From the IMG/VR virus record IMGVR_UViG_3300018023_000033, positions 1 to 23,845 of that record: a DNA stretch of 23,845 nt, one strand, 5' to 3'. This document shows, one piece after another, positions 1 to 20,357 of the stretch (its first letter is position 1; each line of letters opens with the position of its first letter). Source of the stretch: a virus. Position numbers and translations under genes: made by a program. The notes under the pieces are model-generated. The model was not told where the DNA came from, made no database searches, and saw only the letters and a list, made by a program, of their open reading frames with translations.

Positions 1-2567
1 CGCACATCAGTACCATCCACAGCCTTGCCTTGAATGCCATCCGTAAAGACCCCGAGGGTTTCGGATTCGAGGGAAGGGTCACACCGATGGACGACTATGA
101 CCAATCTCAAATGGTAAAGAAGCTCATCGAACGGAGCAAGCCCGAACCGGGGGAGGAACACAATCCCTATCGGTTCCTTGAGAAGCTCGGCTACCATCGG
201 GCACGGGGGATAGGATTCTCCGCCGACTACACCGATGAAGTGCATGAGGAGGCCCTTGAACACCACGCCGGATATCACGCTCTGGAAGACTGGGAGACCA
301 AGATTTGGTACAGCTTCGAGGAAGAGAAGAAAAAGTGCCGGATGGTGGATTTTGACGACATGGTGTTACTGGTAAATAAACGAGCAGCAGAGCAGTCAGC
401 ATGGAAACTGAAGCTCCAATCTCGGTTTTGGCATGTTTTGGTCGATGAAAGTCAAGACCTCAGCCCGACCCAGCATGTTTTTGTCAATAACTTGCTACCC
501 GACTCTAATCAAAACCTGTATATGGTCGGAGATTTGGCCCAATGTCAGCCTGCGGGAACAAAGGTAAGAGTGCTTGAGAAGCGAGCATACAAACTTTCAG
601 GTGCAAAAGTCACGTTAAAGGATATAAGCGAGCTTCGTGATGGCAACAGAGTCGTGTCTTGGAGCCCGTTTTGGGTTTGTAGAAGGGGGCAGAAGAAGCA
701 GTTTGTGGTTTTAGATGGAAGAAAGATAAAGACTTCTAGCCGTATGTATAATGGAAGGATGCTTTCTGTATCCTATAAGGGAAATACAACCAGAGTTACC
801 CCCAATCACTGGTTCTGGGCTAGATTTTCTCCATCCTTGACCACGAGAAGAGTTTTTGCAGTCTATCTTATGTGGCGACAGGACTGGGGATTTAGGGTCG
901 GTAGGGTTACGCTCAAAGGGTCTGGCAATGTCAGCTTGTTCGCCCGAAGGGCGGCGGTTCAGAAATGCGACAAGATGTGGTTGCTAAAAATTACAGATGA
1001 CCACATTGAAGCAGAGACCCAAGAACAGATATTTTCTCTTAGGTACGGCATACCTCATACCGAATTTGAAAATTACGGACTATCCGAAAAAAGCATCGAA
1101 CAGGTGAAGCGGATATTTGCTGCGTCTGACCCCAGTGGCGGGTATAGGTGTCTGGAGGACCAAGGTCTTCTATTTGAATACCCCATATGGAGTAAGCCTG
1201 AAAAGAACAGGCAGAATTGGGGACGGAGTCCATATTTCAAGATAGTCGCAGCCAACCTTATTCCTGAAGTTATGGAATTGCCTCATCTGGAAGACAGGGG
1301 TAGTTCTCCGATAACTTCAGTCATCTCCGAGAATTACTCCGGGTTAGTGTACTCCCTTGACGTAGAGATAGACCATAGATATGTAGCTGATGAAGTACCG
1401 GTTGGGAATTCTATCTACGCCTTTCAGGGGGCAGAGCCACGGTTGCTCAAGGAGTTTAGTGAGGGCTGGCGTGGGCATGTACCGGACCTGTATCGTATCT
1501 CTCGCAACCACCGGAGCCTTCCCGCCATCATCCGGTTATCCAACCGCATCAATGCCACGATGACCGAGGTCATTCCCCTCAAGATGCAAGTGTTCCGGGG
1601 AATGGAGGGGGACAAGGAAGTAGAGACCGGCACCGCCCGGCTCATTCGTTCTAGCACGCCGGGAGAAATCGCCAACATCATCGCTCGGGAGATACAACAC
1701 GACAATGGCGTTAAGGGAAAGCACATTGACTACAAGGATAATGCCATCCTCGTGCGTAGCGCCATCCAGGTCCGGGACCTAGAAGGTGCGCTCGTTCGCC
1801 TGCGTATCCCTTATATCGTCCGGGGCGGCAGGGGATTACTTCAAACCGAGGAAATCAAAGACCTGCTTTCTTATTTCCGTCTGGCGGTCAACCCCAAAGA
1901 TTACCCCGCTTTTAGTCGGGCAATCAGCACTCCCAAGCGGGGAGTCGGGGATGTAGCCATCGAAAAGATACGAGTCCGGGCGGAGGCCGACCACGGCGGC
2001 GACCTGCTGGCGGCGTGCGGTACCAATGATAAACTTGACTTGTTCTCTCGGGCAATGGGGGAAGTGAAGAGCCGCCTTTCTTCTCCAATGGCCGCTTTAG
2101 AGGAAATCATTAACCTCTTTCGGTACAAGGATTACATCAATCAGAAGTATGCACGGGAGGCCAGCAAGGCACGGACGAAGTGTGAGAACATTGACCGGTT
2201 TGTTTCTTTGGTGGAAGGTCTGGTCAATGATACCGGTTTATCTGCCGAAGACCTTGTGTTTCAGCTTGCCATGGAGCGCCCCACCGATGAAGATGATGAA
2301 GAGGGGGCCGTAACCATCAGTACCATCCACAGCGCCAAGGGGTTAGAGTGGCGTCGGGTCTATGTCACCAATGTCACTGAGGGCAGCATTCCCCACCGTT
2401 TTTGTACTACTCCAACCGAGTGGGAGGAGGAGCGGAGGCTTCTATACGTGGCCTGTACGAGGGCAAAGGATGTTTTGAACATTTGTGTTCATGCATTGGA
2501 ATTCCGTGGACCCAATACAATCTCCGTTCGACCCTCTAGGTTCCTTTCTGAAATCGGAGTTTTGTAA
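1..2567 (+). CDS. UvrD/Rep-family superfamily 1 DNA helicase, 5' partial, interrupted by an intein
   Basis: ATP-dependent 3'-5' DNA helicase of the UvrD/PcrA/Rep family, probably for phage DNA replication or repair. The frame is open from the left edge (first full codon at 3), and the first residues read HISTIHSLALNAI, the motif Ib region. Motif I (Walker A) therefore lies upstream of the window, and the TTG at 30 is not the true start. Visible motifs: II as VDESQDLSPTQ (canonical DEFQD), III as VGDLAQ then SIYAFQGAEP split by the intein, IV around YRISRNHRSLP, V as STIHSAKGLEW, VI as LLYVACTRAKD. About 565 helicase residues are visible without the intein, which fits a UvrD-size protein lacking its first part. 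The stop at 2567 is followed by a GIY-YIG gene. The family is certain; the biological role is inferred. Confidence 0.93.
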   Translation, partial: HISTIHSLALNAIRKDPEGFGFEGRVTPMDDYDQSQMVKKLIERSKPEPGEEHNPYRFLEKLGYHRARGIGFSADYTDEVHEEALEHHAGYHALEDWETKIWYSFEEEKKKCRMVDFDDMVLLVNKRAAEQSAWKLKLQSRFWHVLVDESQDLSPTQHVFVNNLLPDSNQNLYMVGDLAQCQPAGTKVRVLEKRAYKLSGAKVTLKDISELRDGNRVVSWSPFWVCRRGQKKQFVVLDGRKIKTSSRMYNGRMLSVSYKGNTTRVTPNHWFWARFSPSLTTRRVFAVYLMWRQDWGFRVGRVTLKGSGNVSLFARRAAVQKCDKMWLLKITDDHIEAETQEQIFSLRYGIPHTEFENYGLSEKSIEQVKRIFAASDPSGGYRCLEDQGLLFEYPIWSKPEKNRQNWGRSPYFKIVAANLIPEVMELPHLEDRGSSPITSVISENYSGLVYSLDVEIDHRYVADEVPVGNSIYAFQGAEPRLLKEFSEGWRGHVPDLYRISRNHRSLPAIIRLSNRINATMTEVIPLKMQVFRGMEGDKEVETGTARLIRSSTPGEIANIIAREIQHDNGVKGKHIDYKDNAILVRSAIQVRDLEGALVRLRIPYIVRGGRGLLQTEEIKDLLSYFRLAVNPKDYPAFSRAISTPKRGVGDVAIEKIRVRAEADHGGDLLAACGTNDKLDLFSRAMGEVKSRLSSPMAALEEIINLFRYKDYINQKYAREASKARTKCENIDRFVSLVEGLVNDTGLSAEDLVFQLAMERPTDEDDEEGAVTISTIHSAKGLEWRRVYVTNVTEGSIPHRFCTTPTEWEEERRLLYVACTRAKDVLNICVHALEFRGPNTISVRPSRFLSEIGVL
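543..1409 (+). mobile_element. Intein (289 aa) in helicase motif III, no recognisable endonuclease domain
   Basis: A protein-splicing insert between Gln and Ser of the helicase motif III (VGDLAQ / SIYAFQGAE). It starts with Cys1 (CQPAGTKV, block A). Block B is VTPNHWFW, with the Thr and His of the TxxH pattern. Block F lies around VYSLDVEIDHRYVAD, and the insert ends VPVGN followed by Ser+1. Removing codons 543-1409 restores a clean UvrD motif III in frame. The penultimate residue is Gly instead of the usual His, which is uncommon but known in active inteins. About 150 residues between blocks B and F show no LAGLIDADG or HNH signature, so this is probably a mini-intein or one with a decayed endonuclease. 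The segment is visibly more AT-rich than the helicase around it, consistent with separate ancestry. Confidence 0.9.
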
Positions 2568-2606: not shown

Positions 2607-3305
2607 ATGAAGACTAGCGGCGTCTACGGGTGGAGAAATACGATAACAGAAAAGTGGTACATCGGAAGCTCTGTCCACATTGAAAGACGAAAAGCAACCC
2701 ACCTTAAGGAGCTTAGCAGGGGAATCCACAGTGGTCAGAAATTTCTCCGAGCGTGGAGAAAGTACGGAAAACAGGCGTGGGAATTTGTAGTTATTGAACA
2801 ATGCGAGCCTGTCCGGGAGACCCTCATAGCCCGAGAGCAGCATTGGCTAGATTTTTATGGTAGTTACAAAAACGGCTATAACACTCTTCCGAAGGCGGGA
2901 AGTTGTTTGGGTACTAAGTGGACTGAGGACCGGCGTAGGAAAACCATTACTAGCCGGATAGCATCAGGTGGTTGGCATCATTCTAAGGAGACCAGAAAGC
3001 TCATTGGGGATATTCAGCGGGGCAAGAAGAAAGGCCCAATGTCTGAAGCACAGAAACGGCTCCTATCCAAGATAAAGATAGAGCAAGGTATGCCCGAGTC
3101 TGAGCGCCAGCGGATAGCTAAGATGGCAAGGGAAAGAGTGTATACTGACGAAATAAGGAGAAATATGTCCTTAGCGCATACAGGATATGTGATGCCGAAA
3201 GCCCAGCGAGATAAAATAGCGGTTGCCAATACTGGGAATCTTAAGGCACGTTGCAAGCATCAGCACATAAACCGTGGTTTACCCTGTGTCTGTGGCAAGC
3301 ATTAA
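2607..3305 (+). CDS. GIY-YIG homing endonuclease with NUMOD3-like repeats (free-standing, SegA-like)
   Basis: Site-specific DNA nuclease of the GIY-YIG family, a free-standing homing endonuclease of 232 aa. The nuclease domain is residues 3-95: the GIY element is GVY (5-7), the YIG element WYIG (17-20), the basic residues are R27/R28, and the probable catalytic Glu is E77 in REQHWLDFYG. After it come NUMOD3-like DNA-binding segments rich in Lys and Arg (about 105-215). The tail HINRGLPCVCGKH has an H-x-N-R-G...C-x-C pattern that recurs in the GIY-YIG gene at 18144-18851. The ATG at 2607 starts the conserved domain immediately. The gene is AT-rich relative to its neighbours and sits directly downstream of the helicase, as an insertion would. 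Confidence 0.9.
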   Translation: MKTSGVYGWRNTITEKWYIGSSVHIERRKATHLKELSRGIHSGQKFLRAWRKYGKQAWEFVVIEQCEPVRETLIAREQHWLDFYGSYKNGYNTLPKAGSCLGTKWTEDRRRKTITSRIASGGWHHSKETRKLIGDIQRGKKKGPMSEAQKRLLSKIKIEQGMPESERQRIAKMARERVYTDEIRRNMSLAHTGYVMPKAQRDKIAVANTGNLKARCKHQHINRGLPCVCGKH

Positions 3306-6720: not shown

Positions 6721-7638
6721 GTGTTAATGTGCTTTCATTGCAAGACAGGGGTGGGAAATAATGAGATTCGAGGAACATGCTTAAAACGAAATGAGGGGTT
6801 TCAAGGGAAAAAGAAACGGCACCAGTTCTTACAGGTGTGTAGTGAATGTTCCACGAGATTTTTGATATCAGGGCATGAAATGCCTCGTATAGTCTGTAGC
6901 AGGAAATGCTCGGACCTAAAAAGGAGTAGGGACTTTTCAGGGACCGGTAACCCCAACTATGGAAACAAAGTGTCTAAACATACAAAGAAACTTATTTCTA
7001 AACAGGTTTCGCTACGTATGCTAAACCCAAGAGAACGATGGGGGGCGGGAACAGCAAACCGAGGAAGGGTTTTTGGCAACGTATGGTTACAACGGCTAAG
7101 TGAGGGCCATAAAGGAATATCACACCCTTGCTCAGAAAAATCCAAGAGAAAGATTGGTACTAAATCAAGGGAGAAGTTTACTGATGAATATCGTAAACGT
7201 GTAAGAAAAGTAAATGAGGAACACGGCAATTGGACGCCGCTAGAAAACTTGTCTGATTTTGCTCTATACCGGAAATTATCGAATTGGGTTAATGGGGCTA
7301 ACTTGCTACAATTTCAGCCAATAGAGACAAAGAGACGAGTTTCTGAGTTGGGTATATTTCATCCAGTTAAGAATAAGACTGGGTTGGTACGAGACCATAG
7401 GCTGTCTCGAAAACAGGCATATGCTCTTGGGGTTTTCCCGGAGATAGTAAGGCATCCAGCAAATTGCCGGTATGTCACACACTCCGAAAATTGTAGGAAA
7501 AGAGTAACATCCGATTTGTCTGTTAAAGAGTTGTTCAGTTTAATCAGTAAGTTTTCTAGAGAGTGGACGGAACAGGGACAGTGCATTGAATTAATTGAAC
7601 GATATGAGTTGGGGGAACGATACAGGAGGGTATCATGA
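6721..7638 (+). CDS. HNH homing endonuclease with NUMOD3-like segments
   Basis: Free-standing HNH-family homing endonuclease of 305 aa. The N-terminal half has paired CxxC motifs (C4/C7, C40/C43, C59/C63), likely zinc-binding, then a NUMOD3-like GNPNYGNKVSKHTKKLISKQ (77-96). The nuclease core is C-terminal: DH at 225-226 in LVRDHRLSRKQA, then HPAN at 245-248 and N257 in THSENCRK, as in phage HNH enzymes of this type. The start is GTG at 6721 with AGGAGG 8 bases upstream. The gene is very AT-rich compared with its neighbours. Its stop overlaps the start of natV (ATGA at 7635), and the ribosome site for natV lies inside it, so insertion preserved expression of the downstream gene. Confidence 0.88.
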   Translation: MLMCFHCKTGVGNNEIRGTCLKRNEGFQGKKKRHQFLQVCSECSTRFLISGHEMPRIVCSRKCSDLKRSRDFSGTGNPNYGNKVSKHTKKLISKQVSLRMLNPRERWGAGTANRGRVFGNVWLQRLSEGHKGISHPCSEKSKRKIGTKSREKFTDEYRKRVRKVNEEHGNWTPLENLSDFALYRKLSNWVNGANLLQFQPIETKRRVSELGIFHPVKNKTGLVRDHRLSRKQAYALGVFPEIVRHPANCRYVTHSENCRKRVTSDLSVKELFSLISKFSREWTEQGQCIELIERYELGERYRRVS

Positions 7639-11375: not shown

Positions 11376-13049
11376 TTACGTGTAAGATTCTAAGAACTTG
11401 GTGTTGCCAAACACTTTGACTCGGGGCGTAAGCGATATACCCGGACCGTAGGATGACACCGTGGCGGTGCTGGTTATTTCCAAGGTGACCAGCCGGGTGA
11501 CCAGTGGTACAAACACTTTCCAATCTGCCATAGCGGAAACAGTCAGACTGTAGACAAACTGTGGAGCGGTGCCGCTGAGGTCACGCTGCAATCCCACATA
11601 CGACCGGCTGGCTTCAAACAAGGTGATGCCGTCTGCCTCCATATTCGTCCGGCGCATGATGAGAAGCTCTCGGCGGAGCAACTCGCTGAGGTCGGAGGCG
11701 GTCTGGAGGTCATTTGCCCGGCAGTCCACGGTGAAGGTCAGGTTCTCCTTGCTCCCGTATACCTCATAGGTCTCGGCGGTGTAGGGCTGCACGATGATAG
11801 CCACTTGGTCATCCTTGAGAACGTTGTCACCGATAGCTATCCGCAGGCCGGGGAGGACATTCTCATTGAGGTTGTACTTTTTGGCTCGGGCCTTTGTTCT
11901 TCCTGTATCTACTCGAACTTCCCAGCGGCACCATTCCCCCGGCAAGAGAAGAGTGGGCAAGGTACAAGTCCCATCCGTATTGGGTACGAGTGACGTGTAG
12001 TTTCCGAGAGAGGTCTGTACGAATACCTGCCCCGGTGCTAGACTGTTTCCCTCCGTCACTTGCGTCTGTAGGATATTCTCCGGGTTGGTCCCCGGTACGC
12101 CCGTGGGGTCAACCTTAACGACCATGTTTGCCGTAATGGTCATTCCGGGCGGCGTGTACGGAGAGAGTTCCAGCCAATCATTGCTGGCAAAGTAGGTGTA
12201 ATCCTTCCCTTTGATAAGTTCGTAGCCGTTCTGGTCCGTAAGCGTGAAGGAGAGGAGGGTCTGAACCATCTGCGGCGGGCTTCCGCCTCCCGGAACGTCC
12301 ACAAGGCCCAGCGGAATGCCAACGACTTCTTGTCCTCCCACGGTACTTTGGCATACCACTTGCTGGACGGTCTGTTGATACCAGTAATCCAACAGGGGAG
12401 TAAGCTGGACGGGTGGGGACCCGGCGAAGAGGACCAACCCGGCTGGGGTATCGGTCAGCAAATAGCCAAAATGCGGGGCGAGGAGCAAATCTACCGGCAC
12501 AGGAGGAGAAACGAGCGTAGTTTGCCACGTGCCGTCGTTTACAGCCGTTTCCAGAGGCGTTGGGGGGCTTCCCCTGCCTGAGACATACCCTGAGACCGTA
12601 GTGCCGTCAATTTGGGGGGCGAAGTAGACGATGGAGCCTTGGGCGTTGACAACCTTACCCTCTTGCCATGTGTATTTCTGGATGGTTAGGTCTACGTCCC
12701 GTGTCTGCTCATTGACCTCATCCACATTGAAATAGTATACCCCGGCTGCGGGCGTCTGCCGGGTGGAATCCACCTCTTGCACCCACTCAATGAATCCCCC
12801 CTCTTTGCTCTGGATTTTGGCAAGAATTGCCCGCCCGTAGTTCTTGCACATGAAGTAGTCAGGAGAGAGGCGGTTGCCGGTGGAGGTGACGTTCTTGATG
12901 CTGATTTGAGCGTCCTTCCATTGAATGAGGTTGTTGTACTGAGAAGAGACTTCTCCAAGGGTGTACCGGAACCGGGGGGACCGGTTTACGGCGTCTTCGA
13001 TAACTCTGCGGAGATAAGCGACGAGATTCCCGCCCGTCAAGTCAAGCAT
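11376..13049 (-). CDS. Probable virion structural protein (557 aa)
   Basis: A large protein, mainly beta-strand-like, rich in Thr, Val, Gly and Pro. It starts MLDLTGGNLVAYLRRVIEDA and ends FGNTKFLESYT. It has no enzyme motif, signal peptide or membrane segment. Composition, size and position in a block of similar genes next to the tail sheath suggest a tail or baseplate component, but I cannot assign a named family. The ATG at 13049 follows GTAGGGAGCATTT. It is the last gene of the minus-strand block and converges on the plus-strand genes ending near 11371, with no obvious terminator hairpin in the short gap between them. Confidence 0.75.
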   Translation of the reverse strand: MLDLTGGNLVAYLRRVIEDAVNRSPRFRYTLGEVSSQYNNLIQWKDAQISIKNVTSTGNRLSPDYFMCKNYGRAILAKIQSKEGGFIEWVQEVDSTRQTPAAGVYYFNVDEVNEQTRDVDLTIQKYTWQEGKVVNAQGSIVYFAPQIDGTTVSGYVSGRGSPPTPLETAVNDGTWQTTLVSPPVPVDLLLAPHFGYLLTDTPAGLVLFAGSPPVQLTPLLDYWYQQTVQQVVCQSTVGGQEVVGIPLGLVDVPGGGSPPQMVQTLLSFTLTDQNGYELIKGKDYTYFASNDWLELSPYTPPGMTITANMVVKVDPTGVPGTNPENILQTQVTEGNSLAPGQVFVQTSLGNYTSLVPNTDGTCTLPTLLLPGEWCRWEVRVDTGRTKARAKKYNLNENVLPGLRIAIGDNVLKDDQVAIIVQPYTAETYEVYGSKENLTFTVDCRANDLQTASDLSELLRRELLIMRRTNMEADGITLFEASRSYVGLQRDLSGTAPQFVYSLTVSAMADWKVFVPLVTRLVTLEITSTATVSSYGPGISLTPRVKVFGNTKFLESYT

Positions 13050-13131: not shown

Positions 13132-13356
13132 TTACAGCTTTGCTTTGATGGCGGCGATAACCTTTTTCGCATCCGTCTCGGCAACGGCTTCTGCCTTGGC
13201 AAGTTCTGCCTTGACTGCGGCGAGAACCTTCTCGGCTTCCGGCTTAACCTTGGCGGCTTCTGCCGTGGCTACGGCCTTGGCCTTTGCCCACCATCCAACG
13301 ACGATGGCTACGACGTGGCTGATTGCCAAACCGACTACTGCTGAGGTGATTACCAT
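13132..13356 (-). CDS. Small single-pass membrane protein with Ala/Lys-rich helical tail
   Basis: A 74-residue protein: one N-terminal hydrophobic helix (about 2-23, ITSAVVGLAISHVVAIVVGW) followed by about 50 residues almost entirely Ala, Lys, Glu and Val (EKVLAAVKAELAKAEAVAET and on), which should form one long charged helix or coiled coil. The frame is open upstream to 13425, but the ATG at 13356 follows GTAGGAGGAAAC, a strong ribosome site. The topology suggests an N-terminal anchor with a cytoplasmic or periplasmic stalk. Holin and spanin roles are possible because it lies in the late gene block, but neither is supported by a specific motif. Confidence 0.65.
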   Translation of the reverse strand: MVITSAVVGLAISHVVAIVVGWWAKAKAVATAEAAKVKPEAEKVLAAVKAELAKAEAVAETDAKKVIAAIKAKL

Positions 13357-13393
13357 GTTTCCTCCTACTGTTTCACTGACTCTCCGCCAAAAT

Positions 13394-15121
13394 TTACCAG
13401 CTACTTCCGCCGCTGACCTTGTCATCGGTCAGTGCATCAGCACTTCCGATGTTGTCTTCCTTGTCCATGACCTTGACCGGCAGGGCGCTGTAATCGACGC
13501 CGGGCGGCGGAGGCGGAACGGTCTGAGTGATGGGTTCAATCCACTGGTGAATGCTGCGCCGGATATCTCCGATGGACACAAACCATGAAATCCTTGGGTA
13601 CCAGCGGTTCTCAATCTGAATGGAGTCGGCCCCGTCATAAAACAGGATGTTCCACTCGCTGCCATCATGAGCTTGGAATACGGCCCCCGGCAGCATATAG
13701 GCGAAGAAAATCTCGTCTCCCTCGATAGGGCTGAGAGGATTGGGAAGCTGCATGGTCCCCGGATTGGGGTGGAACTGGGCAAAGGTGGAAGTACGGACAT
13801 CCGTGGGGTCGCCCACCATGGCTTGTAGGTCGGAATCGGCGTTGGGGTGGTCCCCCTCGCACAATACTTGGGCGGTTTTTGATACCAATGCCGCCAAATC
13901 GCTTGCTTTCGTAGAAATTCCCATGGGCGTTCCTCTCTTATGGCTTGTATAGTCGCCTTCTTTGGATTTTGCCTTCTGTTCTTCCACTTCTTGAATCTCG
14001 TCATCAAGGGTTCGCATAGCCCAATTTCCGTCAACCTTTTCAATTTCAATGACTTGCCCAGTGGCGGCTCCCCCAGCCAGAGGTACGGTAGTAGGGTCAC
14101 CCTCGGAAATGATGCAGGGCAGGGAGTTCAAAAACCGGGAGTGAGTGACAGCAACTATCCTCCCGTTAAGCTTTATGGCTCTCTCCTGTAGCCACTTGAC
14201 AATGCTGACCGCCCGGTCATAGAACTCCCGGAAGGGCTTGCCTCCGGGAGCGGCTTGGTCGATATTTTTCTGGAGGAGTTCGAGTTCCTCAATATGTTCT
14301 CGGACCGTATCTCCAGCCCAATCTCCGAGGTCCCACGGTCGTAAGTTGGGGATGAGGTAGAGTTTAGCCCCCGTGACCTTCTTTATTTCATTTGCTGTAT
14401 AAGCGGCACGGTCAAGGTCGGAGGAGTATATCTCCTTTATATCCATACCCTTAAATTTTTTGGCCGTTTTCCCTGCCTGTTGTTTTCCAATCTCATCTAA
14501 GGGCACATTGGTGAATCCCCGGATGCGGCTATCCATGGAATCCCCGGTAGAGGAGTTATAGGGGGTGTGCCCGTGGCGGACAAAACATACAGTGGGTTTG
14601 GTCTTATCTGGCATACGGTCCCCTCTTTTAAGAGTTCCAGATTTAGCCGGTGCTAGAATGGACGCCTTGGCATCCGCCAAGACTTCCTCTATACTGTCGA
14701 ATGGGGTACCTTCCCAGTCTTCATAAACGTTCTCATCGTCATTGAGGCGGTACTCCATCTCATCCCAATATCCCCCGGCGCTCTTTATAGGTTTCCACCC
14801 ATGCCACATTATCTCAATGGTTTGCGGGGGAATTACCCTCTCGGCATAGAATGAGTGGGTATCTTGCTTGTCCTGTACCATACCTTGGAGGTTTCTTACT
14901 CTTAACAGGATGGGAGCGCCCGCTGCTCCCTCTAACTGTAAGGTGTCACGAAAGACAATCTCACCGTAATAGTAGGCGTGCTGGGGGTTATCAGCAAAGA
15001 ACACTTTACCCAGAGAAGTATCTCCCAAGTCTCCTCCCCAATGTGGGTCCATTGAAGGCTGTAGCCCTTTATGCTGGATGCTTACTACTCGGTCAGTGGA
15101 GGTGCAATGGTAGAGGTACAT
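13394..15121 (-). CDS. Three-part fusion: ART-like domain, histidine phosphatase, probable virion domain
   Basis: One uninterrupted 575-codon ORF. Residues 1-115 look like an ADP-ribosyltransferase/Tpt1-like fold: LYHCTSTDRVVSIQHKGL with H5, GKVFFADNPQHAYYYGE with the Tyr cluster at 50-52, and AERVIPPQTIEI with E94, matching the H-Y-E layout. Residues 170-370 are a histidine phosphatase: VRHGHTPYN with R182/H183, YSSDLDRAAYTA with R238, and VTHSRF with the second His, H327. Residues 400-575 (MGISTKASDLAALV and on, Pro run at about 545) resemble no enzyme and may be a virion protein. Met170 and Met400 are each preceded by in-frame Shine-Dalgarno-like sequences, so separate products are possible. 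The ATG at 15121 overlaps the upstream stop (TAATG). The phosphatase assignment is firm, the ART reading probable, the virion part inferred. Confidence 0.8.
   Translation of the reverse strand: MYLYHCTSTDRVVSIQHKGLQPSMDPHWGGDLGDTSLGKVFFADNPQHAYYYGEIVFRDTLQLEGAAGAPILLRVRNLQGMVQDKQDTHSFYAERVIPPQTIEIMWHGWKPIKSAGGYWDEMEYRLNDDENVYEDWEGTPFDSIEEVLADAKASILAPAKSGTLKRGDRMPDKTKPTVCFVRHGHTPYNSSTGDSMDSRIRGFTNVPLDEIGKQQAGKTAKKFKGMDIKEIYSSDLDRAAYTANEIKKVTGAKLYLIPNLRPWDLGDWAGDTVREHIEELELLQKNIDQAAPGGKPFREFYDRAVSIVKWLQERAIKLNGRIVAVTHSRFLNSLPCIISEGDPTTVPLAGGAATGQVIEIEKVDGNWAMRTLDDEIQEVEEQKAKSKEGDYTSHKRGTPMGISTKASDLAALVSKTAQVLCEGDHPNADSDLQAMVGDPTDVRTSTFAQFHPNPGTMQLPNPLSPIEGDEIFFAYMLPGAVFQAHDGSEWNILFYDGADSIQIENRWYPRISWFVSIGDIRRSIHQWIEPITQTVPPPPPGVDYSALPVKVMDKEDNIGSADALTDDKVSGGSSW
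13922..13941 (-). promoter_or_regulatory. Internal ribosome-binding-like site and ATG for the third domain
   Basis: On the minus strand CATAAGAGAGGAACGCCC directly precedes the in-frame ATG at 13924 (Met400). AGAGAGGA at this spacing is as good as other ribosome sites in the window. Internal initiation would yield a separate 176-residue protein. Confidence 0.45.
14612..14630 (-). promoter_or_regulatory. Internal ribosome-binding-like site and ATG for the phosphatase domain
   Basis: On the minus strand AAAAGAGGGGACCGT precedes the in-frame ATG at 14614 (Met170), just before the phosphatase domain. Translation starting here would give a phosphatase lacking the ART-like part. Confidence 0.45.
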
Positions 15122-15999
15122 TAGTTTTGTATCCCCCTATTCGAGACTTCATGTATCCCAGAGTGTGCTCTCATGAAAGCGGAATCACCACTTCTGATTC
15201 TATCCCCCCTCACTATTCCCTCGGACCCGCAAACAATGCATTTAACCGCCCACTTGGATTGGGGATTAGACGCTACTAAAGACATGGGAATTACGTTTCC
15301 AAAATCTTGTCCTTGCAGATTTATTAAATGGGCTTTTCGGTTTTTCTCTTTTGACTCATCACTATGGTGTTTTCCACGGAAGGAACTTGGGGTACCTTTT
15401 TTGACCTCGCTAATACGTTTTTTCGTTTTCTCTGAATGATGTTTCCCACGCCGGGGGTCTGGCTGTAGCAGACGTTTAATCCGTATTTTATTACATGTCT
15501 CAGGCGTGCGTTTTAATCCAGCAATTGCCTGTTTAATTTTTTCAAGACCTTCCGGGGTATGCCACGATGAACTATTCCTATGCCCCACTATCATTTGTGT
15601 TAAGAAATGTTGTTTTATTTCAGGGTTAGTCCACATTTGTTTGTGGTGAGTAGATATTTTTTGACGAGTTTCTTGAGATAACGGTCCTGTATGTCCTTCC
15701 CCACCCTTACAAATGTTGTACCCATACTCGGGGTCTTGTGACCGCAGAAATTTGATAAAATCCCTCTCGGTTTCGTTAAGCTCTTCTTTTGTTTGGATAT
15801 CCGAACGAAGGGCATGAATGGACCAAGAGGAGGAAAGGGGATGTTTACGCATAGAGGCGAATAAATAAGAACCCCCCTTACCCTCATTGTGTTTTGCGGC
15901 GGAAAATTTACGCTGCAAGTAGGCTTTAAGGTTATCCCCTTTGTGCTGTCCAACGTAGTACTTCCCGGTTTCGTGATTGACAATAAGATAAATGAACAT
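15121..15999 (-). CDS. GIY-YIG homing endonuclease (292 aa), paralogue of 18144-18851
   Basis: GIY-YIG nuclease, free-standing. The catalytic domain is residues 1-105: IYL (3-5) and KYYVG (13-17) stand for GIY and YIG, and the metal-binding Glu is in NETERDFIKFL (E76 or E78). The linker and tail hold NUMOD3-type repeats (two GKHHSE/D-type segments at about 195 and 220). A C-terminal module contains a CxxC (KCIVCGSEG) and is typical of DNA-binding tails in these enzymes. The first 105 residues are nearly the same as in the gene at 18144-18851, while the tails are unrelated. The gene is AT-rich, lies between two structural genes, and its stop overlaps the next ATG. Its start lies behind a 9-bp hairpin. 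Confidence 0.9.
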   Translation of the reverse strand: MFIYLIVNHETGKYYVGQHKGDNLKAYLQRKFSAAKHNEGKGGSYLFASMRKHPLSSSWSIHALRSDIQTKEELNETERDFIKFLRSQDPEYGYNICKGGEGHTGPLSQETRQKISTHHKQMWTNPEIKQHFLTQMIVGHRNSSSWHTPEGLEKIKQAIAGLKRTPETCNKIRIKRLLQPDPRRGKHHSEKTKKRISEVKKGTPSSFRGKHHSDESKEKNRKAHLINLQGQDFGNVIPMSLVASNPQSKWAVKCIVCGSEGIVRGDRIRSGDSAFMRAHSGIHEVSNRGIQN

Positions 16000-16044: not shown

Positions 16045-17355
16045 CTAATTTTGTATCCTCCCAAACGTGACGGTCCTCCCTACCGGGGGTTCAATAGTGT
16101 TCTCGAAAGGCTTATCCGGTTGCTCCCGGATATTCACGATAGGTTCTCCATCACCCTTAAGGTGGAGCGGGTCGATGCCTTGGTCCGGGTTATCCCGATA
16201 GATGGGGTTGTAAAGTGTCGGCAGGCCGGTGTTGATGGGAATGAGATAACGGGTGTCACCCTCGGTCAGTAATTGAACGCCGAAGTCCTGTTGGAGGAGT
16301 ATGCCTCTCGGTTGTTTGTAAGTGACGCCGTGAATGACCAGACGTTCCCCAGTCCGGCGAATGATGAGGTCACCATCCTGTACAATGGGGGTATTGGTCA
16401 GGTAACTTTTCGATTCACGGGTCGCTTTGATACCCCCGCCTTCGTCCAGTTCACGGACAAGCGCCGTGTCAGGGGGGACGTAGAGAAAGTCATAGGGACC
16501 GTAGTAACCTCCGACGACCCCGGTTTCAAAGCAAACTTTGCATCCGTGACGGGGAGTACCCATTCCCGCCTCGGGGCGCACGCAGCCGCAAGGTTCTCCA
16601 CGGGTCCGGCGAAACATTATATAAGCGGGTTCGCCCACCTGTTCAAAAACCCAGTGGTTGCGGTTTACCATTTCTTTGTATTCCCAAGTAATCTGGTCTA
16701 CTTCTTGGGTATTCACAACGGGAGCGGCTGGTGCTCCGGGCTTGTGGATTTCTCCGCCATCACCCACCCCTACTACCGTGTAGAATTGCCGTGCCAGCGA
16801 GGTGTAGATGTCCACGTAGTTGGCTAGCCTCTTGAAAAATGCCTTTACTTCCTGAATGCCAGCATAGTTGGCGACGACGACGTTATCCGTGGAAACCACC
16901 GCTGTATCCGACACCGCTCCACCCTTGGCAAGAGTGTTGTCCATAGGGAACCAGACGGTCTGGTCTAGTGCCCGTACCTCTGTGGGACGTATCTCACTCT
17001 TATTGTTAAACATGTCGGTGAGGACAATCTTTATGTCATCAGGGTTGTTGGCTACCATGGGACGAGTCGCCACAATGTTGGAATAGGGGATCTCTGGGAG
17101 CTTGAAACCCCAGCGGCCCAACTCTCCCTGTTCTACCCAGTCCTGCGGGCGTACAATGAACTCCACCTTTTCAAGGTAAGCTTGGTCTCTCCAGAAGTGT
17201 CCCCGCCATGTTCCCTTATTGAGCTTTTTCCAATTGCTTGGATGGTCGTAGGCCCGGTAGATATTATAGCCCCTCGTTGCCTCGGGGTCGTCCACCCACC
17301 ACAGGTCCCGGCTGCCAACATAACTCGAATTGATGACCAGTAATTCGCTAATCAT
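16045..17355 (-). CDS. Probable virion structural protein with a four-Cys cluster (436 aa)
   Basis: A 436-residue protein rich in Trp, Tyr and Pro, beginning MISELLVINSSYVGSRDLWW. No enzyme motif is visible. An internal knuckle has C256, C258, C272 and C275 (EPCGCVRPEAGMGTPRHGCK and on), which could hold one zinc. The rest is probably beta-rich, and its place among tail-region genes argues for a virion component. It starts 8 bases inside the end of the upstream phosphatase gene, so translation is likely coupled. It ends GRIQN-stop, and the endonuclease inserted downstream ends in the same Ile-Gln-Asn (see findings). The named family is unknown. Confidence 0.75.
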   Translation of the reverse strand: MISELLVINSSYVGSRDLWWVDDPEATRGYNIYRAYDHPSNWKKLNKGTWRGHFWRDQAYLEKVEFIVRPQDWVEQGELGRWGFKLPEIPYSNIVATRPMVANNPDDIKIVLTDMFNNKSEIRPTEVRALDQTVWFPMDNTLAKGGAVSDTAVVSTDNVVVANYAGIQEVKAFFKRLANYVDIYTSLARQFYTVVGVGDGGEIHKPGAPAAPVVNTQEVDQITWEYKEMVNRNHWVFEQVGEPAYIMFRRTRGEPCGCVRPEAGMGTPRHGCKVCFETGVVGGYYGPYDFLYVPPDTALVRELDEGGGIKATRESKSYLTNTPIVQDGDLIIRRTGERLVIHGVTYKQPRGILLQQDFGVQLLTEGDTRYLIPINTGLPTLYNPIYRDNPDQGIDPLHLKGDGEPIVNIREQPDKPFENTIEPPVGRTVTFGRIQN

Positions 17356-17950
17356 TCTTCACCACCACCCAATCCCTTTTCACCTCTATCCACTCACCCG
17401 GTGGTATTTCATTCGCCTCACTGTAAGTGAATGTGAAGTCGGATATTTCCGGCAATCCATTGAATAACCACTTCGTCCCCAGCATGATGTTCTGGAGGTG
17501 AGTGCAGACTAGAACCTCCCCATCCTCGGGAGCTTGATAAATGATTTGCTTAATGGCTTCTATCAACTTTTCGAGGAAAGTGTTCATGGATTCCCCACCC
17601 TTGGGGAACAAATCCCGGCCCGCTCCCGTAGCAAGGATTCCCAGTACATCCTTTACTTCATCTACAGGTTTGCCATTCATAATGCCGTAGTCTCGGCTTT
17701 TGAGGCCGTCTAGTTTATCTACCTTTAACCCATACTCATGGGCTACAGTGGTTGCCAATATGGAAGCCCGCTCCAATGGGCTGGAATACACCTGTTTGAT
17801 GCAGCAGTATTGACCCCTTAATTTTTCAACTATCAGTGGTATCTGAGCGAATCCAGCCGGGGACAGAGGGATGTCAAGCGCCCCCCGGAGCCGAATTGGC
17901 TCCATGTTGTAGGCCGTCTGAGGATGACGAAGAAAGATGATTCGCTTCAA
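17348..17950 (-). CDS. Histidine phosphatase superfamily protein (phosphoglycerate-mutase-like)
   Basis: A 200-residue phosphatase of the branch with catalytic phospho-histidine. H9 lies in FLRHPQTAYN (RHP instead of the usual RHG), followed by RLRGALDIPLSPAGFAQ, YSSPLERASILATT with R61, RDYGIMNGKP around D87, KGGESMNTF, and the second catalytic His H151 in VCTHLQNI. All residues expected for catalysis are present. The substrate is unknown; the superfamily acts on sugar phosphates, nucleotides and proteins. The start is TTG at 17950 with AGGTAGGA just upstream, 3 bases after the previous stop. The 3' end overlaps the next gene. It is a distant relative of the phosphatase domain in the 13394-15121 ORF. 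Confidence 0.88.
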   Translation of the reverse strand: MKRIIFLRHPQTAYNMEPIRLRGALDIPLSPAGFAQIPLIVEKLRGQYCCIKQVYSSPLERASILATTVAHEYGLKVDKLDGLKSRDYGIMNGKPVDEVKDVLGILATGAGRDLFPKGGESMNTFLEKLIEAIKQIIYQAPEDGEVLVCTHLQNIMLGTKWLFNGLPEISDFTFTYSEANEIPPGEWIEVKRDWVVVKND

Positions 17951-18143: not shown

Positions 18144-18851
18144 CTACAAAGATGGTTTACAAAGTAAACATTCTGGGTTAATCAACCCTCGGTTGACATG
18201 CCAGCGAACATGTTGGGCTTTCCTACGGCTGTTTCTTTCAATGCTGATTTTGGCGGCCCTTTGCTTGGCTTCCCGTGTTCCAGCCCTGCCCCCCAGTATG
18301 TGGGCCTCGTGGGACAGGCGTGCTGACATTTCTTTGGGGTGCTCTGCCGCATACTTCCTACAGCCTTCGGCCCGTGGTGCTTCGTCCTGCAAGACACGGG
18401 CAGCCTTAATCTTGTCGATAGTCTCTTGTGATGTAGGATGCCCTTTCATAATCTCACTCCAGTGTTCCCGGAAGTTCGGTTGCGCCCATCTTTGTTTCAG
18501 AGCTTCGGTCACCTTGGCTCTCGCCGCAGGTCCGTGCGGCCCCGTGAACCCCTCCCCTCTCCGGCATATGTTGTAGCCATATTCAGGGTCAGTTGCCCTA
18601 AGAAATTTGATGAAGTCCCGCTCCGTCTCGTCTAATTCGGATTTTGTTTGGATGTCGGCCCGGAGGGCGTGTATGGACCAAGAAGAGGGAAGGGGATGCT
18701 TACGCATGGAGTTATAAAGACGGGAACGACTGGAGATTCCCTTTTGAGCGTGATGAAACTTCTGCTGTAGGTATTTTTTTAGGTTGTTCCCCTTATGCTG
18801 ACCGACATAGTACTTCCCAGTCTCGTGGTTGACAATCAGATAGATGAACAT
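18144..18851 (-). CDS. GIY-YIG homing endonuclease (235 aa), paralogue of 15121-15999
   Basis: GIY-YIG nuclease, free-standing. The catalytic domain (1-105) is almost the same as that of the gene at 15121-15999: MFIYLIVNHETGKYYVGQ at the start, then SSWSIHALRADIQTK and ETERDFIKFLR with the metal-binding Glu. After GFTGP the two proteins diverge completely. This tail has an Arg/Ala-rich NUMOD3-like part and ends WHVNRGLINPECLLCKPSL, sharing the H-x-N-R-G...C-x-x-C pattern with the gene at 2607-3305. The frame is open five codons upstream, but GAGGGGG sits just before the ATG at 18851, which also aligns with the paralogue. The 3' end holds a perfect inverted repeat GTTTAC/GTAAAC (18155-18169). 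Confidence 0.9.
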   Translation of the reverse strand: MFIYLIVNHETGKYYVGQHKGNNLKKYLQQKFHHAQKGISSRSRLYNSMRKHPLPSSWSIHALRADIQTKSELDETERDFIKFLRATDPEYGYNICRRGEGFTGPHGPAARAKVTEALKQRWAQPNFREHWSEIMKGHPTSQETIDKIKAARVLQDEAPRAEGCRKYAAEHPKEMSARLSHEAHILGGRAGTREAKQRAAKISIERNSRRKAQHVRWHVNRGLINPECLLCKPSL

Positions 18852-18853
18852 AC

Positions 18854-18886
18854 ACAACCCCCTCATATAAATACCGAGAAAGTTGT
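18854..18886 (-). promoter_or_regulatory. 11-bp hairpin burying the ribosome site of the GIY-YIG gene
   Basis: On the minus strand ACAACTTTCTC (from 18886-18876) pairs with GAGGGGGTTGT (18864-18854) along all 11 positions, three of them G-U, with an 11-base loop. The GAGGGGG ribosome site is entirely within the stem, 2 bases before the ATG at 18851. Translational control is inferred. Confidence 0.6.
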
Positions 18887-19889: not shown

Positions 19890-20357
19890 ATGGCGGAACT
19901 CATACAGTGCCGAAAATGTAATACCCCTAAGTCTGAGGAGGAATTTCAACTATTCCGTAATGGAGATACGGTTGGTCGTAGACACGTATGTAGAAGATGT
20001 AGGAACTCTCGAATCATGGCTACCACAAGTCCAACAAGAAGAAATGAGTTGTTTAAGAAAAGAACTGAGAATCTTCCGGGTTGTTGGCTTATTAAATATC
20101 GGTACAAAATGACTCAAGAGGAATACGCTGCTCAATTTGAAAAGCAAGGTGGTGTGTGTGCAATCTGTAAAAGACCCCCCACAGCATGTCGTGCCAAACG
20201 AAGGTTGTGTGTGGACCATAATCACAAGACTAAAAACAATCGAGGGCTTCTTTGCACTTCTTGCAATGTCATATTGGGTCGTTTAGAAAACAATCCCGGA
20301 CCTTTGGAAGCTTTTATTAGATACGTGGCAGAGTGGAAAGAAAAAGAGGAAATCTAA
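19890..20357 (+). CDS. Endonuclease VII-like HNH nuclease (155 aa)
   Basis: Nuclease of the recombination endonuclease VII superfamily. The C-terminal core has C90/C93 (VCAICK), DHNH at 109-112 with the catalytic His, and C122/C125 (GLLCTSCN), which together form the zinc-bound beta-beta-alpha-metal fold. An extra N-terminal treble clef has C7/C10 and C34/C37. Its size equals T4 gp49 (157 aa), but it is AT-rich and isolated between structural genes, so a mobile homing-type nuclease is at least as likely as a Holliday-junction resolvase. The ATG at 19890 fits the conserved N-terminus; no good ribosome site is seen. Another ATG in a different frame lies at 19867. The stop is 2 bases before the next ATG. 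Confidence 0.82.
   Translation: MAELIQCRKCNTPKSEEEFQLFRNGDTVGRRHVCRRCRNSRIMATTSPTRRNELFKKRTENLPGCWLIKYRYKMTQEEYAAQFEKQGGVCAICKRPPTACRAKRRLCVDHNHKTKNNRGLLCTSCNVILGRLENNPGPLEAFIRYVAEWKEKEEI

Follow-up and report, generated by a model that had tools for sequence, protein, structure and literature searches.

A phage gene joining two enzyme domains to a tail-region protein, with a probable retained internal start

Principal finding

The window considered here is a 23,845-nucleotide stretch of viral DNA that carries, on its minus strand, a 575-codon ORF (13394..15121) joining an ART-like domain, a histidine phosphatase (HP), and a C-terminal tail-region domain (CT). Comparison with related loci makes it moderately probable that this is a virion-region gene with two products, an enzyme–CT fusion and a plain CT begun at Met400 from the Shine–Dalgarno (SD) sequence of the CT leader. 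In one clade, ART and HP genes would have been inserted after a minor tail gene and ahead of the CT leader, and the reading frame would have been opened through that leader. Translation of the full length would then give the enzyme–CT fusion, while initiation at Met400 through the leader's own SD would give plain CT. The particle would be built from plain subunits, with a minority of fusion subunits mounting or carrying the enzymes; the ART would act on a host target using NAD+, and the HP would dephosphorylate a host or nucleotide substrate. That two products are made, and in what ratio, that CT is present in the virion, that the cargo is delivered, and that the enzymes are active are predictions here. 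A wider formulation, offered more tentatively and at somewhat less than an even chance, holds that enzyme cassettes are swapped in-frame before a fixed leader and start, and that plain CT and a set enzyme-bearing fraction are delivered with the particle.

Organization of the fused gene

The fused ORF was defined from the ORF listing and homologues, and its minus-strand location and ATG start bear out the sequence-only reading that had picked it out. The ATG overlaps the stop codon of a GIY-YIG/NUMOD3 homing endonuclease gene (15121..15999, minus strand), which lies between the fusion and the gene for a minor tail protein (MTP; 16045..17355, minus strand; 50% identity to gp322 of phage Tunturi_5). 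A tail terminator (TT) gene is found on the other side (11376..13049, minus strand; 40% identity to Tunturi_5 gp324), and a second, separate histidine phosphatase, HP2 (17348..17950, minus strand), which is 28% identical to HP, lies upstream of MTP.

The three parts are all encoded on the minus strand. The ART-like domain covers residues 1–125 (14747..15121) and shows the motifs YHCT, SIxxxGLxPS, and GKVFFAD; HP, a branch 1 histidine phosphatase (PF00300), covers residues 173–375 (13997..14605); and CT, assigned from a predicted SH3/Tudor-like core and from synteny, covers residues 400–575 (176 aa; 13394..13924). Above the Pfam cut-off, the whole 575-codon protein matches only histidine phosphatase, at residues 178–373. 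The domain edges first proposed at Met170 and Met400 agree with this match and with the homologues that have CT alone.

SD-like DNA does precede both methionines, and both linkers read Lys-Arg-Gly-X-X-Met, as had been noted from the sequence. At Met170 the site is AAAAGAGGGGACCGT-ATG (14612..14629, minus strand), a weakly supported start, and the DNA before Met400 is GACTATACAAGCCATAAGAGAGGAACGCCC. The linker DYTSHKRGTP ahead of Met400 is encoded by the retained 5′ leader of the stand-alone CT gene (13925..13954, minus strand). Within this leader, the heptamer AGAGAGG (13932..13938, minus strand) is the candidate SD of the internal start, and the Met400 ATG (13922..13924, minus strand) is the probable second start codon, kept in 7/7 fused lineages.

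The C-terminal domain and its neighborhood

An alignment search for CT in IMG/VR gave 64 contigs. CT stands alone in 43 of them, is fused to ART and/or HP in 12, carries another N-terminal extension in 8 (L026, L027, L030, L055–L058, and L065), and is cut in 1 (L037, excluded from the fused/free count). The 12 enzyme fusions (L004–L014 and L052) represent seven distinct lineages, the window included.

The surroundings of CT are highly conserved. MTP precedes it in 61/64 contigs and TT follows it in 62/64, the remainder being cut by contig ends. The connector, MTP, and TT are all present in order in 49/64; most gaps are contig or flank ends, and three contigs (L032, L034, and L079) have 3.4–4.6 kb on the left side without a connector match. 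A stand-alone CT is also found in the jumbo phage Tunturi_5 (308,711 bp), as gp323 (159 aa), which is 49% identical to the window protein over residues 421–550 and is the sole phage-record match to CT at a threshold of E 0.01. By annotation, gp323 lies between a minor tail protein (gp322) and a tail terminator (gp324), and gp326 is a tail sheath. Tunturi_5 has a contractile tail, according to the accessible part of PMC11924767.

The window CT has no match in Pfam at E 1. An AlphaFold2 model of CT has a pLDDT of 59 and is best at CT residues 71–130, which are predicted with moderate confidence to form a small SH3/Tudor-like barrel. By VIA-align the model comes closest to Tudor/SH3-like folds (best Z 6.8); phage neck and tail proteins are missing from the 50 rows listed, which does not count against such a role, and a Foldseek search with the model gave nothing at E 0.001 or better. 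The enzymes are fused to a protein of the virion gene cluster, with CT sitting between MTP and TT. Because of this synteny and of annotation made by others, CT is best viewed as a putative small structural protein of the neck or tail region of contractile-tailed, jumbo-like phages. A small ORF (13132-13425, minus strand) overlaps the end of the fusion and encodes one membrane-like segment followed by an Ala/Lys-rich tail; its relatives adjoin CT in several loci.

The internal start at Met400

In contigs L053 and L054, a free CT gene directly follows MTP, at a spacing of 57 and 65 nt. It starts at the same ATG as Met400, and its leader is nearly identical to the linker DNA of the fused genes. 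The motif AGRGAGG, counted over the 22 nt ahead of each in-frame ATG inside an ORF, is present at the CT junction in 7/7 fused lineages versus 2 of 947 control ATGs, the controls being drawn from 148 mechanical ORFs of 300–800 aa (not all of them genes) in the same 31 loci, with the junction ATGs of the fused ORFs left out. AGRGAGG occurs together with ACTAY, counted at −40 to −22, at 6/7 fused junctions and at 0/947 controls; in L009 the ACTAT lies in an upstream copy of the leader, so that ACTAY is in place in 6/7. Among the 78 internal ATGs of the seven fused ORFs, those at the CT junction are the only ones with AGRGAGG. Of 20 free CT genes, 9 carry AGRGAGG and 11 carry ACTAY. Two fused lineages have a second ATG two codons after the Met400 equivalent. 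At L009:9930-9990 the CT leader is partly duplicated, with a first copy that has no ATG and then a second SD and ATG.

Single-sequence SD strength was rejected as evidence for internal starts. Predicted anti-SD pairing is −8.4 at Met400 and −8.2 at Met170, and among the 90 in-frame ATGs lying inside 11 genes of the window these sites rank only 9th and 11th.

Divergence among the fused lineages gives the conservation its weight. Between the window and L013 or L009, pS is 0.61–0.88 over the parts tested, and dN/dS, where estimable, is 0.02–0.18. Against L013, dN/dS is 0.10 for HP and 0.14 for CT, with ART saturated; ART has a dN/dS of 0.04 against L008, and pS for CT is 0.13–0.21 in closer pairs. 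The ART, HP, and CT parts are all under purifying selection. Because distant lineages are close to saturation at synonymous sites, retention of the Met400 SD and ATG does not simply reflect a recent origin.

Codon-level tests at the junction, taken alone, are modest. Across codons 390–397, third positions are identical at 8/8 sites between the window and L013, a value matched by four overlapping windows of 551, in two places; over five sequences, 6/8 are identical, which 13 of 375 windows reach. At the junction, 4/5 invariant residues use the same codon in all five sequences, as against 60/209 elsewhere (Fisher p 0.029). In L014 the linker protein changes from KRG to KGG, while the SD stays as AGGGAGG. 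An internal SD and ATG that share the stop codon of the full-length frame are thus conserved in 7/7 fused lineages, and on this comparative evidence Met400 is probably a true second start.

The small N-terminal extensions serve as a natural control. In all four lineages with such extensions (L026, L030, L055, and L065), leader-like DNA, judged by eye, precedes the whole extended ORF; the CT Met of the extended lineages has no AGRGAGG in three and is absent in L026. The leader standing in front of the extended ORF means that small extensions were added downstream of it, and the enzymes upstream. This opposite placement would be expected if plain CT has to be present alongside the enzyme fusions, and it may be tied to cargo size.

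Architectures and history of the fusions

Four arrangements of the enzymes are found ahead of CT. ART–HP–CT occurs in the window and L004–L007, in L009/L012, and in L013; ART–CT occurs in L008; HP–CT occurs in L010/L011 and in L052; and L014 has ART, a circularly permuted HP, and CT. In L010 and L013, the listed ORF begins at the first start codon, ahead of the likely ATG. From the leader through CT, L008 and the window share 97% DNA identity, and in ART 83%. By ORF alignment, L008 is missing residues 163–380, exactly 218 codons (654 nt; 13982..14635 on the minus strand of the window, edges ± a few nt), which span HP, and the frame is intact; L008 thus appears to have lost HP while the frame was kept. 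The frame and leader persist despite loss of ART or HP and, in one contig, circular permutation of HP.

In a tree of MTP, CT, and TT (31 taxa, 1098 columns), all seven fused lineages form one clade with L053/L054 (UFBoot 100), and the free-CT pair L053/L054 is sister to the fused L013 (UFBoot 100). Two deeper nodes within the clade are weak (UFBoot 55 and 72). The simplest reading of this tree is a single fusion followed by loss of ART–HP in L053/L054, which would have left the old internal start as the start of the gene; separate fusions are possible.

These comparisons divide the earlier proposal of three genes whose stop codons were lost, or of an operon read both as a fusion and as separate proteins. 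Since CT is a separate gene in 43/64 contigs and the linker DNA is its leader, both a lost upstream stop and dual reading fit the Met400 junction. Neither is supported at Met170, where the start is not conserved and none of the contigs found has ART or this HP as a gene of its own. A search for homologues encoding the parts as separate genes found CT alone, as above, and no separate ART gene: all nine ART loci found are fusions. Searching close relatives with the window HP gave fused copies only (five contigs). The suggestion that ART and HP form a modification-and-removal pair is weakened, as ART without HP (L008) and HP without ART (L010/L011 and L052) both occur and the two are not an obligate pair.

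The enzyme domains

Residues 1–125 are likely an ART-superfamily domain. Searched alone, the domain matches PARP at E 0.046, with 13.7 bits against a Pfam cut-off of 26.7, and the E value is 0.19 when the whole 575-codon protein is searched. Alignment by hhalign to seven RNA 2′-phosphotransferases (E. coli KptA and six phage stretches) gave 82% over 57 columns, and CT as a control gave 0.3%. A five-sequence ART profile searched against 177,635 distinct PDB sequences returned three matches, all RNA 2′-phosphotransferases (E 0.76). The YHxT strand and the I..GL helix that follows it are invariant in 5/5 sequences and align to RNA 2′-phosphotransferases. The ART-like identity first suggested for residues 1–115 thus has moderate sequence support from hhalign, while the PARP match stays below cut-off; the structure prediction suggested as a check for an ART/Tpt1 fold gave an AlphaFold2 model (five sequences) with a pLDDT of 36.5, too low for a fold comparison.

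Position 90 of ART is Glu in L009, L013, and L014 and Ser/Ala in the window and L008. This position is possibly the catalytic residue, and the Ser/Ala makes activity of the window ART doubtful. Other searches added little. Reference genomes gave 43 pattern matches to ART, none confirmed; phage records gave 122 matches, with E values of 4 to 10 among the 20 listed; and PHROGs gave weak matches only, including RNA 2′-phosphotransferase for one member (E 0.33). The top phmmer PDB match of the L013 ART, a T-cell receptor chain (E 0.014), was taken as noise; the same search returned RNA 2′-phosphotransferases at E 0.4.

HP matches its family profile well above the cut-off (His_Phos_1, PF00300, at residues 178–373; E 8e-32, 110.9 bits against 21.7), with the catalytic histidine motifs FVRHGHT, holding the N-terminal RHG, and AVTHSR toward the C-terminal end. 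The closest PDB entry by sequence is 1h2e (E 4e-10), which we take to be PhoE. The RHG, S-S-x-x-x-R-A-like, and THS/THG motifs of the two align. HP differs in that the glutamate of LRE, presumably the acid/base residue in 1h2e, is replaced (LRPWD), and in that the domain is permuted in L014. The nearby Asp of LRPWD might serve in place of that Glu.

The permuted HP of L014 (L014:2930-3628, plus strand) lies in an open ART–HP–CT frame. HP residues 150–202 precede residues 2–143, so that the THSR half comes before the RHG half, and each catalytic motif is present once. A search for further permuted copies found this contig only. No literature report of a circularly permuted histidine phosphatase was found, nor, by titles and the beginnings of abstracts among the papers listed, one of a phage histidine phosphatase–tail gene of this type.

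Alternative explanations

The Met400 site might be an unused relic of a former intergenic region, with only the full-length fusion being made. A leader that is read as a linker need not have any role, the SD energy at Met400 is ordinary, and purifying selection on the fused frame and all its parts fits this account. We regard it as unlikely, because the SD, its spacing, and the ATG are kept in 7/7 lineages despite near-saturated synonymous sites and because the SD of L014 was retained through a change in the linker protein. The possibility that the leader is mainly a late promoter or processing site, with plain CT coming from its own mRNA and not from internal initiation, has a somewhat greater, though still limited, likelihood. 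It is favored by the position of ACTAY, which lies at −29 to −32 in half of the free CT genes (10/20), at −22 in Tunturi_5, and at −29 in 6/7 fused genes, and by similar leaders before some connector, MTP, and TT genes. The SD is conserved along with ACTAY, however, and both may matter. Either route, promoter or internal initiation, would lead to the same product outcome.

A third product, HP–CT started at Met170, is the least likely of these alternatives. The sequence CTTAAAAGAGGGGA before Met170 is common to the window and L013 in different frames (KRGDRM and KEGKDM), and reading of the same DNA in two frames hints at an old gene start; HP–CT is moreover the entire gene in L010/L011 and in L052. 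Of the other ART-then-HP lineages, L013 has a similar site, yet that of L014 is weaker and L009 has no Met at this point, and AGRGAGG in the fused ORFs is seen only at CT-junction ATGs. Met170 is therefore without comparative support as a start, and a third product is not claimed. It is also improbable that the fusion acts only in the infected cell, in host takeover or defense evasion, with CT as an oligomerization domain and not a virion part. The CT core does resemble a common SH3/Tudor-like barrel, which implies no specific function, but CT lies between tail genes wherever flanks are present and is conserved without an attached enzyme. A two-product virion-region gene is the reading that we prefer.

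Relation to known systems

The window gene combines two known themes, virion-fused ARTs and two-product endolysin genes. According to the accessible part of PMC9503650, myovirus ARTs that are joined to head genes or lie next to them are probably packaged. Like these virion-packaged ARTs with MuF, portal, or head proteins, the window ART is fused to a protein from the structural cluster of a contractile-tailed phage; unlike the ARTs in that part of PMC9503650, its partner is CT and not MuF or portal, HP lies between, and the partner keeps its own internal start. The window gene is also like the two-polypeptide endolysins described in the accessible parts of PMC9430671 and PMC7098653 (LysIME-EF1), in which an N-terminal enzyme is followed by a C-terminal module, and an internal SD and ATG yield additional copies of that module. 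As given in the latter, LysIME-EF1 consists of one full-length chain and three C-terminal fragments from the internal start. In contrast to the endolysins in these texts, the C-terminal module in the window is a putative tail-region protein, the internal start would be the ancestral gene start, and the products are predicted.

Polyvalent proteins offer a third comparison. Directly upstream of MTP, Tunturi_5 encodes gp321 (L001:6482-10570; 1362 aa), a polyvalent protein with Pfam matches to ART-PolyVal (E 6e-48), a 2′-5′ RNA ligase-like domain (weak Acb1), and GNAT, and with sub-threshold matches to SprT-like and DUF3990. Its annotation as a MutT/NUDIX hydrolase was set aside, there being no Nudix match at E 0.1. 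As in polyvalent proteins such as gp321, several effector domains share a polypeptide and the same operon; the window gene differs from gp321 in that its two effector domains are joined to a structural gene that is conserved. BLASTP found no convincing similarity between the window ART and gp321. Taken with the packaged ARTs in the accessible part of PMC9503650, gp321 makes virion cargo plausible for the window fusion.

At the level of search entries, the literature gave no case of a tail-region protein that bears an enzyme cassette and keeps an internal start. Should two products indeed be made, the gene would represent a natural design for a controlled number of enzymes on a phage particle with assembly unspoiled, and a testable route by which Tunturi_5-related phages carry enzymes directed at NAD+ and phosphate into the host. 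Among the soil phages compared here the corresponding swaps already exist in nature, as forms with ART only, with HP only, with both, with neither, and with a permuted HP. Gene callers that allow a single start for each stop would annotate just one protein at this locus and overlook the other.

Other features of the region

The phage had also been described as making NAD+, and the window does carry salvage genes: it encodes a cytidylyltransferase-like/Nudix protein together with a nicotinamide phosphoribosyltransferase, a pairing known from NAD+ salvage and described in the accessible part of PMC9503650. In several loci a recurring leader, consisting of ACTAY, about 10 nt, TTA with a purine-rich SD, and ATG, stands before the genes for CT, the connector, MTP, and TT; in this phage group it may act as a late promoter or processing signal.

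Five endonuclease-like ORFs are found in 24 kb (2607-3305, 6721-7638, 15121-15999, 18144-18866, and 19890-20357), with matches to GIY-YIG, NUMOD3, or endonuclease VII that in some cases fall below cut-off; the one at 15121-15999 is missing in the close relative L008. MTP has a large insert in two contigs (L025:6478-8829 and L079:613-2952), with weak LAGLIDADG/intein-splicing matches in L025 and none in L079. At 30-2567 (plus strand) of the window, a UvrD-like helicase is split between GDLAQ and SIYAFQGA by 289 residues (172–460). Pfam matches only the helicase parts, and the insert, which begins with Cys and ends with VGN before Ser, looks by eye like an intein.
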